The translations under genes and the position numbers were made by a program. A DNA stretch of 64,000 bases from Deltaproteobacteria bacterium (lineage in GTDB: Bacteria > UBA10199 > DSSB01 > JACPFA01): assembly GCA_016183235.1 (NCBI GenBank), contig JACPFA010000026.1:97284-161283 (forward strand), read 5' to 3'. Numbering within the stretch: the stretch's first letter is position 1; each line of letters opens with the position of its first letter. The notes under the pieces are model-generated. The model saw nothing but the letters and a program-made list of their open reading frames with translations, was not told the DNA's origin and ran no database searches. Shown piece after piece: positions 16,475 through 64,000 of this stretch.

Positions 16475-16741
16475 ACAAGGTAGGCGTTTTGCGAGAGCAG
16501 CCAGCCTCATTTGCAAACGCGCACCGTTTGCCCTACTGTTCGTCATCTGTCATTGCGAACCCAGCAGGGTGAAGCAATCTCTTCTGCCTAAGCGATGGGA
16601 TTGCCACGCTCGCTATCATGGGTCCCCGCCTTCGCGGGGATGACACCGCTCGCAATGACAGCATTACAATAGCCTTCGTGCGGGCTTGCTCCTGGTAATG
16701 TTTGCCAACAAGGGTACCTCTGCCCGCAAAACGCTTATCTA
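16475..16741. repeat. composite hairpin element filling a convergent gene junction, copy 1
   Basis: The element lies exactly between the stops of two convergent genes. Outer arms (GGCGTTTTGCG near 16484 and CGCAAAACGC near 16725) are imperfect complements. Inside is a core shared with 18116-18377 and 36744-37075: CAAACGCGCACCG, a GTCATTGCGAAC palindrome (16547-16660) and CAGCATTACAATAGCCTTCG. A TCCCCGCCTTCGCGGGGATG hairpin is nested within the palindrome at about 16620. Confidence 0.75.
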
Positions 16742-35756: not shown

Positions 35757-35904
35757 GGGACCTCTAAAAAGGGCCCAGATGCAAGGCGCCCGCAAAGATG
35801 CGACCGGAGCGTATATGGAAATACGTGAGGATCGCAACTTTGCGGGCAATCCTTCGCTTACGCTCTGGACAGGCTCTGCAGATGGGTCGTTTTTGGAGGT
35901 CCCC
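35757..35904. repeat. hairpin element between convergent genes
   Basis: GGGGACCTCTAAAAA-type arms (35757 onward, complement ending at 35904) surround a second stem built on CCCGCAAAG and its complement CTTTGCGGG. It starts directly after the lipoprotein stop and ends 4 bp before the convergent gene's stop. The hairpin could terminate transcription in both directions. Confidence 0.75.
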
Positions 35905-35908
35905 ATAG

Positions 35909-36121
35909 TTAATTTTCGACAATTCCGAACGATTCAATGCGCTCAAGGTCGATGGTTGCTGATTCGTTTTGGTCAGCAATTTTTAGTGTGCCGCGTTCGT
36001 AATCCACATCTTCTAGAACACCCATATAAGAAATACCAAAGGCAATGATCTCCACCTTTTTGCCCAGCAGATAATCAAGCTTGGTAATCGATGTTTCTAA
36101 TTTTCGATCAATGGGGTACAT
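35909..36121 (-). CDS. small LSm/SH3-like protein, 70 aa
   Basis: A 70-residue cytoplasmic protein with the pattern LLGKKVEIIAFGISYMGVLE, then DVDYERGTLKIAD and DLERIESFGIV, as in LSm/SH3-like small barrels. No nucleic-acid-binding signature can be named, and Hfq's conserved YKHA motif is absent. The start is placed at ATG 36121, preceded by a strong GGCGGAGG site; the open frame extends 35 codons further up without support. It is divergent from the PilZ gene. Confidence 0.65.
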   Translation of the reverse strand: MYPIDRKLETSITKLDYLLGKKVEIIAFGISYMGVLEDVDYERGTLKIADQNESATIDLERIESFGIVEN

Positions 36122-41717: not shown

Positions 41718-43158
41718 TGGCATTCAAGTTACTGTAGAACCGGGTACCACCTTGATCGAGGCTGCCAAGCAAGTTGGTAAAAGCGTTCCCCATTTTTGTT
41801 ATCATAAAAAACTTTCTATCGCAGGCAATTGCCGCATGTGTTTGGTCGAAGTTGAAAAGATGAACAAGCCCGTTGTTTCCTGCCAGGTAACAGCGGCAGA
41901 AGGCATGGTGGTTAAAACCGATAGTGAAAAAGTCAAAAATTTGCGTAAAAACGTTTTGGAATTTATTCTCATCAATCATCCCATCGATTGCCCGGTTTGC
42001 GATCAAGCCGGCGAGTGTAAATTACAAGAATATTACATGGATCATTCGATCGCCGATAGTCAGATGACGGAGGCCAAAGTGCATAAACCAAAGCGGGTCG
42101 ACTTAGGGCCATTGGTGGTTTTAGACGATGAACGTTGTGTGTTGTGCAGTCGCTGCATTCGTTTCTGCGACGAAATCACAAAAACCGGCGAGCTTTGTTT
42201 TGTCAATCGCGGGGATCATCAAACCTTAACCACCTTTCCGGGCATGAAGCTCGATAATCTTTATTCCCTCAACACCGTCGATATTTGCCCCGTGGGGGCT
42301 TTAACCAACAAAGATTTTCGTTTTGCCTGTCGGGTGTGGTTTTTAAAAGAGACCCCTTCCATTTGTACGGGTTGTGCAACGGGTTGCAATATTACAATCA
42401 ATCATTATGACGATAAGATTTATCGCTATCTTCCGCGAGAAAACGAAGCGGTCAATCAATGTTGGTTATGCGATGAGGGGAGGCTTTCCTATAAATTTGT
42501 CAACGACTCAAGTCGATTGCTGCGCCCCAAGGCCAAAACCAACGGCCAGGCTTCTTTTGTAGCCCCCACCGTGGCCATGGAAGTTTTGGTGTCTCAAGTA
42601 GAAAAAACCAAGCCACAAGATATTGTATTGGTGGGTTCGGCCCTCGAGTCCAACGAAAATAATTTGGCGCTTAAGAAATTGGCCGATCTTTTGGGAGTCA
42701 CGCATTTGTATTATTCGGCTCGAATTGTGCCTAATCCCTCGCACGATGATTTCTTAATCAAGGCCGATAAAAACCCCAACCGAGCGGGTGTAGAAAAATT
42801 AGGGTTTAAACCCCTGCTAGGGGCTGCTCCTATTCATAGTAAGGTTTGTATCATCTTGGGTGGTCTGTCTGAAGCAGAGCAAAAGGCTCTGCAACCAAAA
42901 GCTAGCGGCCATTGGGTGATGCTGGCTTCTAATGAAGGGCCAGATACCCAAGCCGCCGATCTAATATTCCCCACTGCAACCTTTGCCGAACAAGAGGGGA
43001 CCTTTACTAATTTTCAAGGTAGGGTGCAGCCCTTTGCCAAGGCCTTCGAGCCCAAGGGTGATACCAGACCCGCTTCGCAATGGATCGAAGAGTTGGCTGT
43101 GCGGTTGGGTTTCTGTCATTGCGAGGCAAGCCAGCTCCTTCGCTCAGGCTCAGGATAA
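41698..43158 (+). CDS. nuoG: NADH-quinone oxidoreductase subunit G, short form with repeat-derived C-terminus
   Basis: A 486-residue 75-kDa-type subunit; the family is often 650-900 residues. It has the 2Fe-2S ferredoxin domain (HFCYHKKLSIAGNCRMCLVE), the N5/N4 ligands (DCPVCDQAGECKLQ, CVLCSRCIRFC, DICPVGALT) and the extra N7-type set CTGCATGC plus NQCWLCDEGR. The molybdopterin-like domain is cut short. The last 15 residues (CHCEASQLLRSGSG) are read from a GTCATTGCGAG repeat that supplies the stop codon. ATG 41698 is chosen over TTG 41689. Confidence 0.95.
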   Translation: MPTLTIDGIQVTVEPGTTLIEAAKQVGKSVPHFCYHKKLSIAGNCRMCLVEVEKMNKPVVSCQVTAAEGMVVKTDSEKVKNLRKNVLEFILINHPIDCPVCDQAGECKLQEYYMDHSIADSQMTEAKVHKPKRVDLGPLVVLDDERCVLCSRCIRFCDEITKTGELCFVNRGDHQTLTTFPGMKLDNLYSLNTVDICPVGALTNKDFRFACRVWFLKETPSICTGCATGCNITINHYDDKIYRYLPRENEAVNQCWLCDEGRLSYKFVNDSSRLLRPKAKTNGQASFVAPTVAMEVLVSQVEKTKPQDIVLVGSALESNENNLALKKLADLLGVTHLYYSARIVPNPSHDDFLIKADKNPNRAGVEKLGFKPLLGAAPIHSKVCIILGGLSEAEQKALQPKASGHWVMLASNEGPDTQAADLIFPTATFAEQEGTFTNFQGRVQPFAKAFEPKGDTRPASQWIEELAVRLGFCHCEASQLLRSGSG

Positions 43159-43212
43159 ACTCCGCAATCTCATCCAACGACGAGATTGCTTCGCGGATGC
43201 TCGCAATGACAG
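43113..43212. repeat. GTCATTGCGAG repeat that ends nuoG and leads nuoH
   Basis: CTGTCATTGCGAGGCAAGCC at 43113 lies in frame at the end of nuoG; the right arm CTCGCAATGACAG ends at 43212. An inner GCAATCTCATCC / GAGATTGCTTC stem is kept. Ten bases separate it from the nuoH ATG. Confidence 0.9.
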
Positions 43213-43222
43213 AGAGAATAAT

Positions 43223-47380: not shown

Positions 47381-47395
47381 ATTGAGAGTAATTTT

Positions 47396-48991
47396 ATGTT
47401 GTGGTTCAATGAACATATTTTAACCGTGGTGGTTTTTTTACCGCTAGCTTTTGCAGCGCTTGGCCTCCTCCTCAAAGGTAGTTGGTCAAAATACATTGCC
47501 ACCCTCGGCACCTTGGTAACTTTTGTAGTGTCGCTGCACCTTTGGTACCATGATAGCGGCGCTGCAGGTTTTCGTTTTTCTGAAACCATGAGTTGGATCC
47601 CAAGCTTAGGTATTCAATATAAGCTGGGTGTTGATGGGTTTAGCCTTTGGCTTGTTCTTTTAACCACGATTTTAAGTTTTCTGTCGGTCGTTTTTTCTAC
47701 CGGTTCCATTCAGCAGCGCGAAAAAGAATATTATTTTTTCATGTTGGTTTTGGAGTGTGGCATGTTGGGGGCACTGGTGGCCCTTGATGTGTTTCTTTTT
47801 TATATTTTTTGGGAAGCCATGCTCATCCCCATGTATTTTCTCATTGGCATTTGGGGCGGCAAAGAAAAAATTTATGCGGCCATCAAGTTTTTTATTTTTA
47901 CCCTAGTGGGTAGTGTTTTGATGTTGGTGGCCATTTTATATCTTTATTTTAAAGCCGGCCAAACCTTTGAATTGAGCCAATGGTACAACCTCGAATTAAA
48001 TCTTACCGAACAACTGTGGCTTTTTGCCGCCTTTGCCCTTTCTTTTGCGATTAAGGTTCCCATGGTGCCCTTACATACCTGGCTCCCCGATGCCCATGTG
48101 CAGGCGCCAACGGCCGGAAGTGTTATCTTGGCTGGTATTTTACTAAAGATGGGGACCTATGGCTTTGTGCGCTTTGCCATGCCGCTCTTCCCCGAGGCCT
48201 TGCTTAAATCGCAATCCTTGCTGGCGCTGTTAGCCGTGATCGGTATTGTTTATGGTGCTTTGGTGGCCATGGTGCAAAAAGATATTAAAAAACTGGTGGC
48301 CTATTCTTCGGTGTCTCATTTGGGGTTTGTGATGTTGGGGTTGATGTCGCTTTCTCCTCACGCCATTAACGGTGCAGTTTATCAAATGCTCAACCATGGG
48401 ATTAGCACGGGGGCCTTGTTTTTGTTGGTAGGCATGATTTACGATCGAACTCATACCCGTGAAATCAAAGATTATGGTGGCATTGCCAAACAAGTACCCA
48501 TTTTTACCGTCATCTTTATGATCGTGACTTTTTCAAGCATCGCCTTGCCGGGCACCAATGGTTTTATCGGTGAATTTTTAATTTTGTCGGGGGCTTATGC
48601 TAGTTTGCCTTGGCTAACCATTGTGGGTTCTACTGGCGTGGTGCTCTCGGCGGTTTACATGTTATGGATGGTCGAGCGAGTGTTTTTTGGTGAAATGCGA
48701 AATCCCAAATTGGCAACGTTGACCGATTTGAAGTGGAAAGAAATTTTTGTCATGGCACCTTTGGTGGTTTTAATTTTTTGGATGGGAGTACAGCCTAAAT
48801 TTTTCCTCGATAAAGTCGACGTGGCTAGCCAAAGCTTGCTTTTACAAATGAAAACCTATCGAGGGGTGCAAGTTTCAAAAAAGGTGTCATTGCGAGGCAC
48901 TCTGTCATTGCGAGCCCAGCAGGGCGTGGCAATCTCCCCGGTTAAACAGAAGAGATTGCTTCACCCTGCTGGGTTCGCAATGACAGAGTAA
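47396..48991 (+). CDS. nuoM: NADH-quinone oxidoreductase subunit M with repeat-derived C-terminal tail
   Basis: A 531-residue antiporter-like subunit (ND4-type). FWEAMLIPMYFLIGIWGG, KVPMVPLHTWLPDAHVQAPT, AGSVILAGILLKMGTYGFVR and LVAYSSVSHLGFVMLG hold the proton-path residues. Family sequence ends near residue 496. The last 35 residues (beginning SLRGTLSLRAQQG) are translated from a GTCATTGCGAG palindrome that also contains the stop codon. Confidence 0.96.
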   Translation: MLWFNEHILTVVVFLPLAFAALGLLLKGSWSKYIATLGTLVTFVVSLHLWYHDSGAAGFRFSETMSWIPSLGIQYKLGVDGFSLWLVLLTTILSFLSVVFSTGSIQQREKEYYFFMLVLECGMLGALVALDVFLFYIFWEAMLIPMYFLIGIWGGKEKIYAAIKFFIFTLVGSVLMLVAILYLYFKAGQTFELSQWYNLELNLTEQLWLFAAFALSFAIKVPMVPLHTWLPDAHVQAPTAGSVILAGILLKMGTYGFVRFAMPLFPEALLKSQSLLALLAVIGIVYGALVAMVQKDIKKLVAYSSVSHLGFVMLGLMSLSPHAINGAVYQMLNHGISTGALFLLVGMIYDRTHTREIKDYGGIAKQVPIFTVIFMIVTFSSIALPGTNGFIGEFLILSGAYASLPWLTIVGSTGVVLSAVYMLWMVERVFFGEMRNPKLATLTDLKWKEIFVMAPLVVLIFWMGVQPKFFLDKVDVASQSLLLQMKTYRGVQVSKKVSLRGTLSLRAQQGVAISPVKQKRLLHPAGFAMTE

Positions 48992-61393: not shown

Positions 61394-61837
61394 TGGGTTC
61401 TCTCCTTTATTAATGTAAGAAAGATTAAAAAACGACCTCCCAAACGAAGGTTGCGTTTAAAACTAAATTGTGGCTTTACGTTGCTTTAGGTCACCCCAGG
61501 TACAAGTAGGTCTACCAAAGCTGACGCCAGTGTAATTTAGCAAATCCACTTCGTCAAGCAAATGTTTTGTACAAAAACTATCAGTAAAACCTGGTACCTA
61601 CGGGTTGCCAAAGAGCTGGCAAAGGTCTATGTAATGCGGCGCGTTAAAGCAAGGAAAATTTTGAACGGTCTGTCATTGCGAACCCAGCAGGGACCCTCTG
61701 TCATTGCGAGGGCAACAGCCCGAAGCAATCTCACCGGTGAGGCAGAAGAGATTGCTTCACCCTGCTGGGTTCGCAATGACAGAGAGTCCCCGCTGGCCTC
61801 GCAATGGCAGGGTCGAAACAATGACAAGTCGATTTCT
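61394..61837. other. intergenic region upstream of porin 2 and the Rsm22-like gene
   Basis: The first 270 bp contain the porin promoter region (a ribosome site GGAGAGAACCC lies next to its ATG) and no recognisable RNA. The last 160 bp are repeat DNA (61670-61826). The reading frame of the Rsm22-like gene runs open through the repeat to 61562, but that part has no family similarity. Confidence 0.5.
61670..61826. repeat. GTCATTGCGAAC repeat cluster upstream of the Rsm22-like gene
   Basis: CTGTCATTGCGAACCCAGCA, CTCTGTCATTGCGAGGGCAA, GCAATCTCACCGG, its complement GAGATTGCTTCACC and TTCGCAATGACAGAG form a nested array that ends with GGCCTCGCAATGGCAG. It ends about 12 bp before the gene's ATG. Confidence 0.85.
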
Positions 61838-63145
61838 ATGAATCTATATTTTCCAGAAACATTGGAACCCCTTTTAAAATCGTACCTAAAAGAAACCTTT
61901 GGCAATAAATCCTTGGACTATTTTGCCAGTGGGGTGGGGCCGCTTTCCACTTGGTTTACGGAAGAGCGGGGGGACATACCGCATCATTATTATAACCAAC
62001 CTAAATTGCGTTCGGGGTATTTGCTTTATTTTTTGCCCATCAATTTTGCAAAAACGGCCTTTGTTTTGAACCAAATCCCTGCTGCAGAGGTGTTGCCCAA
62101 ACATTTAAAAGTTTTGGATTTAGGTTCGGGGCCGGGCAGTGCAGGATTGGCCGCACTCCACTGGGCCAGAAATTATGGATATACGATTGAAGATATAACC
62201 TGCGTGGATTGGTCGCCGCAAGCTCTGCAAGATGCAAGACAGCTGCTGCAGGGCTTGGCCAAGCCTGCGACCCCCACCCTTCACACCGTCCGTGGGAACT
62301 TGCAAGAAGTGCGGGTTAAGGGAAGGTTTCATTTAATTCTTTTGTCCCACGTGCTCAACGAATTCAAAACTCCAGCGCTTAAATTAAAATTTGTGCTTAG
62401 GGTATTAGAAGCTAATTTGGAAGAAAATGGTTTGTTGGTTTTGATTGAACCCGCCTTGCGCCAAACCACCCGAGATTTAATGCAAGTGCGGGATCAATTA
62501 TTAAAAGAGCATGGCTATGGCTGGCAGGCCTTGGCCCCTTGCCTGCATAACAAACCCTGCCCCATGTTGGCGGCCACCCGCGGAGATTGGTGCCATTTTT
62601 ACGTGCCATGGCAAGAACCGGCTTATTTAAAACAGGTGGATCGAATCGTGGGGAATGACAATCGGTTTTTGAAGGTGAGTTATCTTATCCTTGCGAACCA
62701 TCATCTGTCATTGCGAGGTCAGCAGAGGCCTTCTGTCATTGCGAGGTCCTCTGGCCCTCTGTCATTGCGAGCCCAGCAGGGCGCGGCAATCCCATCGCTT
62801 AAACAGAAGAGATTGCTTCACCCTGCTGGGTTCGCAATGACAGAGAATAAAAGGCTCGCAATGACAGAACGCCCCGACTTGCCTCGCAATGACACAGAAG
62901 CCTTGGTCGTTAGTAATCAAATGAAAACCCGCGGTAAAACGGAGGTATTGGTTTGCAACGCTGCGGGGTTGACTCGGGTGAGTAGGCTCGATAAAGACCA
63001 AAGTGAGGAAAATGAGGATTTAGGGCGTATTTATCGGGGGGATTGGGTTGAGGTGCCAGGTTTAAAAAATCAGCCCTACTGGGTGGATCAACTCTTGCGT
63101 TTGGGAAAAGATGGGGCCATAAGAAAAAAAACGAGGAGGACCTGA
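61838..63145 (+). CDS. Rsm22-like class I methyltransferase with an in-frame repeat insertion
   Basis: A 435-residue protein of the Rsm22 family (mitochondrial small-ribosome assembly; bacterial role uncertain). The SAM site is KVLDLGSGPGSAGLAALH (about residue 90), then SHVLNEF, GLLVLIEPALRQTT and an Fe-S type cluster motif APCLHNKPCPM with DWCHFYVPW (233-255). Family sequence breaks after YLILANHH and resumes at ALVVSNQMKTRGKTEVLVCN. The roughly 63 residues between (SLRGQQRPSVIARSSGPLSL and on) are encoded by GTCATTGCGAG repeats at 62706-62893. The frame is open throughout. ATG 61838 starts at family sequence. Confidence 0.85.
   Translation: MNLYFPETLEPLLKSYLKETFGNKSLDYFASGVGPLSTWFTEERGDIPHHYYNQPKLRSGYLLYFLPINFAKTAFVLNQIPAAEVLPKHLKVLDLGSGPGSAGLAALHWARNYGYTIEDITCVDWSPQALQDARQLLQGLAKPATPTLHTVRGNLQEVRVKGRFHLILLSHVLNEFKTPALKLKFVLRVLEANLEENGLLVLIEPALRQTTRDLMQVRDQLLKEHGYGWQALAPCLHNKPCPMLAATRGDWCHFYVPWQEPAYLKQVDRIVGNDNRFLKVSYLILANHHLSLRGQQRPSVIARSSGPLSLRAQQGAAIPSLKQKRLLHPAGFAMTENKRLAMTERPDLPRNDTEALVVSNQMKTRGKTEVLVCNAAGLTRVSRLDKDQSEENEDLGRIYRGDWVEVPGLKNQPYWVDQLLRLGKDGAIRKKTRRT
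62706..62893. repeat. GTCATTGCGAG repeat cluster inserted in frame within the Rsm22-like gene
   Basis: Three nested left units (CTGTCATTGCGAGGTCAGCA, TCTGTCATTGCGAGGTCCTC, CTGTCATTGCGAGCCCAGCA) and three right units (TTCGCAATGACAGAG, CTCGCAATGACAGAA, CTCGCAATGACACAG) surround GGCAATCCCATCGCTTAAAC. The length, about 188 bp, adds about 63 codons with no stop. The translated part SLRAQQG...KQKRLLHPAGFAMTE is the same as in the NuoM tail. Confidence 0.92.
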
Positions 63146-63712: not shown

Positions 63713-64000
63713 TGTCATTGCGAGCGAGCATCGTTTGCGAGCGTGGCAATCTTCCTTTTTATTCTGCCATTCATCTGCAATTAACGCCACGTCTTTTCAA
63801 GGTAGGGAGAGGCCAAGTGAGAGCCCGCGCCCGGTCGGCCTATGAGGTCCTCTGTCATTGCGAGGAGTTTGCGACGAAGCAATCTCCTCGGTTTAACCGG
63901 TGAGATTGCTTCGCCCGTTGGGCTCGCAATGACAGAGGCCCTCCGGAGCCTGTCCTGAGGCCTTGCGAAGGAGCCGACCTTTAGCGCTAAAAGGCTCTCC
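63713..64000. repeat. repeat block at the right edge of the window
   Basis: TGTCATTGCGAGCGAGCATC (63713), then TTCTGCCATTCATCTGCAAT and CCACGTCTTTTCAAGGTAGG (63791), the start of a GTCTT-family hairpin. A full GTCATTGCGAGG palindrome follows (63852-63935), then CCCTCCGGAGCCTGTCCTGA. The right arm of the outer hairpin lies beyond the window. No gene is seen. Confidence 0.75.

Follow-up and report, generated by a model that had tools for sequence, protein, structure and literature searches.

In-frame palindromic repeats in a predicted disordered loop of a deltaproteobacterial Rsm22-like protein

The protein-coding palindromes of Rickettsia, the Rickettsia palindromic elements (RPEs; Ogata et al., 2000, 2002; reviewed in PMC2229807), are the best known palindromic elements that insert in frame, and such insertions used to be regarded as a special trait of bacteria with an obligate intracellular life. 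REP sequences of the GTAG- and CGTC-tagged types are likewise present within genes of many bacteria, including those encoding UvrD-type helicases, and two Xanthomonas species carry different REPs at about the same site of recB (PMC3733652). Intragenic REPs have been suggested to be neutral because they are located in flexible linkers or loops (PMC3733652). Here we describe palindromic repeats inside an rsm22-like gene of an uncultured "deltaproteobacterial" lineage (UBA10199-like) that lies outside the Rickettsiales and is distant from Rickettsia. The gene lies in a stretch of DNA of 64,000 nt, the whole of which is designated as the window in the following. It is very probable that a non-autonomous palindromic element was inserted in frame into this gene and has been kept in a predicted disordered loop of the Rsm22 protein.

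The rsm22-like gene and its insert

The rsm22-like CDS (61838..63145, forward strand) encodes 435 amino acids. Besides the open frame and the structural match described below, a Pfam profile search identified the product as a member of PF09243 (Rsm22) with an E-value of 5.4e-18 and 65.8 bits compared to a gathering score of 23, which confirms the Rsm22-like methyltransferase that an earlier note on this DNA had proposed. By homology the CDS starts with the ATG at 61838, whereas the start in the ORF list, 61562, would add a second, upstream element to the translation. This nested copy (61669..61811) is located directly upstream of the rsm22 start. In a comparison of 30 sequences all 26 of the 26 invariant residues are present in Rsm22 of the window, among them four conserved cysteines, C235 (62540..62542), C241 (62558-62560), C252 (62591-62593) and, 3' of the insert, C373 (62954..62956), which are all encoded on the forward strand. 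For the Rsm22/METTL17 family an Fe4S4 site has been reported (PMC9892005), and C235, C241, C252, and C373 can be presumed to act as the cluster ligands, with C373 as the fourth one. The insert follows the third of these cysteines (C252) and precedes the fourth (C373) and the C-terminal domain, and neither a stop nor a frame break is present across the ORF, the insert included. Both the position between the Fe-S region and the C-terminal domain and the intact frame therefore are as the earlier note had claimed.

The borders of the insert emerge from the alignment with homologues. The stretch from the YLIL strand to the WRVVS motif comprises 77 residues in Rsm22 of the window, whereas 29 homologues from its class have 18-42 residues there, with a median of 23. 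None of the 29 exceeds 42 residues: the insert is absent from them all, and a region of similar length in homologues, which had been named earlier as the finding that would speak against an insertion, did not turn up in this class. The nearest distant case is L068 (Polyangiaceae) with 60 residues, the only one among 87 unique sequences; the alignment scan supplied 75 relatives, all from outside the family of the genome under study. The repeat block has 193 nt and thus accounts for about 64 codons, so that about 13 codons of the 77-residue stretch are non-repeat, and the net gain over the homologues is about 54 residues. Since 64 repeat codons stand against a net gain of about 54, about 10 residues of an older linker were also replaced. 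The previously counted 63 inserted residues correspond well to the repeat block, and the floppy loop added to Rsm22 comprises about 55 to 64 residues.

The AlphaFold model of the whole protein has a mean pLDDT of 84, whereas residues 295-349 remain below 50. The best structural matches of the model are the METTL17/RSM22 structures 8csr and 8d8k (E about 1e-14), which show METTL17 and yeast RSM22 in intermediates of mitoribosome assembly. The insert is accordingly predicted to be a disordered loop in an otherwise confident METTL17/Rsm22 fold, and the structural check suggested earlier places it in a loop. The plain reading of the insert is that of a tolerated disordered loop, which was one of two possibilities raised before and which is supported by the model and the kept invariant residues. 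The other possibility was that of a decaying gene, meaning a pseudogene that is still open by chance and whose insert reflects relaxed selection. Three element copies within 2.3 kb would fit with such a decay, as would the fact that Rsm22 of the window is more diverged than some of its relatives are from each other. However, the part behind the insert is no more diverged than elsewhere, as the ratio of C-terminal to N-terminal identity is 0.98 compared to a mean of 0.96 for the other sequences, and about 64 extra codons were taken up without loss of the frame. Decay of rsm22 is therefore very unlikely, because the invariant residues, the C-terminal conservation and the confident model are all retained.

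A tolerated loop also has to be weighed against a co-opted one, whose basic residues would serve, for example, in binding RNA or the ribosome. The insert is indeed rich in Arg, Lys, and Gln, its frame is preserved, and the small ribosomal subunit is a binding partner of Rsm22/METTL17 (PMC9892005). However, the sequence of the insert tracks the element rather than any conserved protein motif, the loop is predicted to be disordered, and relatives have unrelated sequences at the same site, which makes co-option a very improbable explanation.

Architecture of the repeats and their family in the genome

The repeat block (62704..62896, forward strand; residues ~290-353) is defined by repeats, inverted repeats, the RNA fold, and the gap in the homologues, and the palindromic repeats that had been noted at 62706-62893 agree with it within a few bases. 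It contains GTCATTGCGA(G/A) three times in forward and three times in reverse orientation, arranged as a nest, and six matches to GTCATTGCGAG with at most one mismatch are located within 62707-62893. One complete element of 87 nt (62758..62844; nhmmer 2.3e-25), a head-to-head dimer of the form TCTGTCATTGCGAG...CAATGACAGA coding for about LSLRAQQGAAIPSLKQKRLLHPAGFAMTE, is enclosed by two outer pairs of arms. The two outer 5' arms of 28 and 26 nt (62704..62731 and 62732..62757, forward strand), which are seen as repeat units and were left by nesting, pair with the two outer 3' arms (62845..62868 and 62869..62897, forward strand) according to repeats and RNA fold. RNA folding yields -61.2 kcal/mol (z -11.9) for the hairpin of the complete element and -126.6 kcal/mol (z -15.8) for the region 62700-62900, and such a very stable stem in the mRNA could hinder translation.

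Nested near-identical repeats are difficult for short-read assembly, and the number of nested arms in the block could be due to misassembly. It is nevertheless exceedingly unlikely that the elements as such were put into rsm22 by a repeat-induced misjoin, as the sequences on either side are from a single protein family and follow each other as in relatives of the same order. A misjoin at a dispersed repeat would rarely reconnect the halves of a single gene in the correct frame, and comparable in-frame copies are present in PcrA, PrmC, and other genomes.

Upstream of the block, ATCCTTGCGAACC (62686..62698, forward strand) is possibly a degenerate further 5' end of an element with 11 of 13 matches, whereas no 43-nt stretch in the upstream part of rsm22 yields more than 9. 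It covers codons of the conserved strand YLILAN. The element in the Rsm22 loop of genome G009 (L020) begins exactly at those conserved-strand codons (GTC ATT GCG AGC), so that element-like 5' ends are located on the same codons in two families of the class. The coincidence may reflect shared history, microhomology or chance.

In the window GTCATTGCGAG occurs 34 times with at most one mismatch compared to 0.66 expected occurrences, and the exact 10-nt core GTCATTGCGA has 468 sites genome-wide compared to none for the reversed control. The element is a head-to-head pair of REP-like units, starting with TGTCATTGC and ending with GCAATCTC, and complete copies are mostly 80-90 nt long with a modal length of 86-87 nt. 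Three complete copies were folded and gave -51 to -61 kcal/mol (z -8.6 to -11.9), including the third complete copy near rsm22, downstream of the next gene (63851..63936; hairpin -51.5 kcal/mol, z -8.6). Coding insertions in the own genome were counted in a sample of stretches of 427 kb, which contains 60 elements, the majority of them outside long ORFs or at ORF ends. Complete in-frame copies are present within PcrA (L159:10677-10763) and PrmC (L151:12426-12511), element fragments were found inside NamZ and AguA, and an HpnN-like protein contains a match to the core site. With 2.17 of 6 open frames per element compared to 1.86 in shuffles, there is little enrichment of open frames. No Rfam match reached the gathering score in the window, the element had no match in 72,556 plasmids and 50,697 phages, and in the literature the repeat sequence and its peptide gave chance primers or nothing.

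Further repeats were observed elsewhere in the window. At 16549-16659 an element copy harbours a second palindrome, GGGTCCCCGCCTTCGCGGGGATGACACC, similar to REPs of the CGTC type, so that two families are nested there. A 536-codon ORF at 47381-48988 derives its C-terminal end from an in-frame element (TLSLRAQQG...AMTE), and a NuoH-like ORF runs upstream through an element at 42965-43213. The real start of the latter is probably located behind the element, which poses a risk of mis-annotation. A different interspersed repeat of ~150 nt at 35764-35910 has ~20 further copies, mostly with 73-98% identity at the protein level, and the PcrA ORF likewise ends in this repeat (residues 747-795 of PcrA in L159, its C-terminal tail).

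The best, albeit weak, candidate for a mobiliser of the element is a REP-associated transposase of the Y1 or RAYT type. In the own genome one short Y1_Tnp/RAYT-type gene encoding 166 aa (L163:4275-4772) is flanked by element ends at distances of 53 nt on the upstream and 41 nt on the downstream side. This bracket (L163:4222-4824, corresponding to G000:C16:12222-12824) resembles a REPtron and consists of half elements in the same orientation, GAGATTGC...GCAATGACA. Among other element-bearing genomes 0 of 20 Y1_Tnp loci are bracketed by the element, and a RAYT as proven mobiliser is thus unsupported beyond the own genome. In genome G035, which contains 201 element sites, no Y1_Tnp was detected. 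Across 46 genomes the counts of Y1_Tnp and of the element correlate weakly (Spearman 0.40, p 0.006, without correction for the tree).

Repeats in the same loops of relatives

The distribution of the element across the class is patchy. The 11-mer element site occurs 367 times in the own genome and 220, 201, 122, and 75 times in four others, and its number is near zero in genomes of the same order. The insertion site in Rsm22 is not private to this genome. In G009, which belongs to another family, a short GTCATTGCGAG copy (YLVIASNKVAKQSLCNDTWRVV) makes up the Rsm22 loop. In its congener G020 (L055) a different palindrome of ~40 nt, CGCCACAAGGAGCCAGGAGTATACTCCTGGCTCCTTGTGGCG, fills the whole loop; it is present as a single copy and was therefore rejected as a dispersed repeat, and it originated perhaps by template switching. 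The loop of G018 contains a GTAGGGGCG palindrome, whose GTAGGGGCGAAC end occurs eight times in the G018 genome, and those of G039 and G045 contain CCCTCTCCC palindromes, for which the tested 12-mer has three copies in G039. Further Rsm22 loops of relatives consist of tandem repeats.

PcrA and PrmC were selected solely by the presence of the element in the own genome, before any look at the relatives. In the PcrA linker, G009, G035, and G045 have GTCATTGCGAG elements, and G043 and G014 have GTAGGGGCG palindromes. In the PrmC loop, GTAGGGGCG palindromes are present in G045 as well as in G029, and further genomes have repeats of other kinds there. Against a length-matched control from the same genes, 17 of the 79 loops contain repeats at p<=0.05 (Rsm22 5/29, PcrA 8/29, PrmC 4/21) compared to about 4 expected, with shared ancestry uncorrected. 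A score of at least 10 was reached by 7 of 35 Rsm22 loops compared to 0.69% of 4625 coding windows from the same loci, likewise uncorrected for shared ancestry and with a score that overlooks dimers with interrupted stems.

Insertion of mobile elements does not account for all loop repeats, since some are tandem repeats, which may have arisen by slippage, and the G020 palindrome is a single copy. One could therefore assume that slippage and template switching on site, rather than mobile insertion, mainly feed the loops, and tandem repeats in the loops L007, L060, L062, L235, L237, and L241 as well as the single-copy palindrome of G020 would be in accordance with this. However, the inserts of the window, G009, G018, and G035 derive from repeat families with copies scattered over the respective genome, and for the insert of the window slippage is excluded by the copy number, which renders slippage unlikely as the main source.

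Proposed mechanism and comparison with known systems

Broad insertion and retention where frame and a disordered loop permit is the likeliest explanation. The non-autonomous palindromic element of ~86-87 nt is present in hundreds of copies, most of them intergenic, and the nests would have arisen by insertion of elements into one another. Copies would then have entered the loop that joins the methyltransferase core of Rsm22 to the C-terminal domain. As the frame is unaffected by the net change in length and the element has one frame that is free of stops, ribosomes would read through the insert, and the product, which can be assumed to be translated, folded, and active, would have a disordered loop between the third and the fourth cysteine. 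Targeting to rsm22 would not be needed for this, as most coding copies were presumably purged by selection, whereas in-frame copies in disordered inter-domain loops would survive. Such survival would account for the observed pattern of different repeats in the same loops of different lineages. Old loop repeats would be eroded or replaced, while the loop length is near 20-30 residues in most Rsm22 homologues.

We tentatively extend this, with somewhat less than even confidence, to the assumption that, in this bacterial class, a fixed set of disordered loops in Rsm22, PcrA, PrmC, and probably more housekeeping proteins forms a standing reservoir, where palindromic and tandem repeats of unrelated origin take each other's place over time. 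If this is true, the loop sequence of core proteins at any moment would be mostly recycled repeat DNA. Certain protein loops may be long-lived landing sites for repeat DNA, and whether such insertions are random accidents or mark lasting permissive sites in proteins has now become a countable question. Repeat insertion in loops is a natural source of new protein sequence. It also cautions that repeat DNA is often what lies behind loop "hypervariability" and ORF starts in genomes of this kind.

Similar to RPEs, the element is a short palindrome of high copy number that is found in frame in conserved protein genes, where its peptide is tolerated, and that also has intergenic copies; in the own genome an in-frame palindrome in conserved genes, the criterion of the RPE type, was found for Rsm22, PcrA, and PrmC. 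It differs from RPEs in its length of 86-87 nt compared to 105-146 nt (PMC2229807) and in its lineage, as the homologous records are mostly deltaproteobacterial MAGs, whereas RPEs are defined as elements of Rickettsia. Furthermore, and unlike in RPEs, different repeat families recur here in one loop of one protein across genera. The likeness to the Rickettsia elements drawn in the earlier note thus holds for the in-frame, high-copy, and palindromic nature, but not for RPE membership: the element is RPE-like and no RPE proper, from which length and lineage set it apart. The palindromic repeats of Wolbachia and the fusions with MITE and ERIC sequences (PMC2229807) are comparable by their description as in-frame repeat-derived peptides, the host lineage of the Wolbachia repeats being unrelated. 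With the Rsm22/METTL17 family of ribosome assembly factors the product shares the methyltransferase fold, the four conserved cysteines, and the C-terminal domain, and it differs from them as a bacterial member with a repeat-encoded, predicted disordered loop between the third and the fourth cysteine. Like CGTC/TGTC REPs (PMC3733652), the element has a TGTC end, a stem starting with AT (TCTGTCATTGC... in complete copies), head-to-head dimers, and intragenic copies, among them those in UvrD-type helicases. However, its stem is longer and interrupted and its tail is CTC, whereas CGTC-tagged REPs have a stem of 8-9 bp, a loop of 4-5, and a CCA tail. The GTAGGGGCG palindromes of the relatives end in GTAG as do the GTAG-tagged REPs (PMC3733652). 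In contrast to the REPs of that study, where such a pattern is undescribed, repeats recur class-wide at defined loops of three proteins. As far as the literature compared here shows, it is new that defined loops of three core proteins are hit again and again across a class and that the element families are exchanged between genera.
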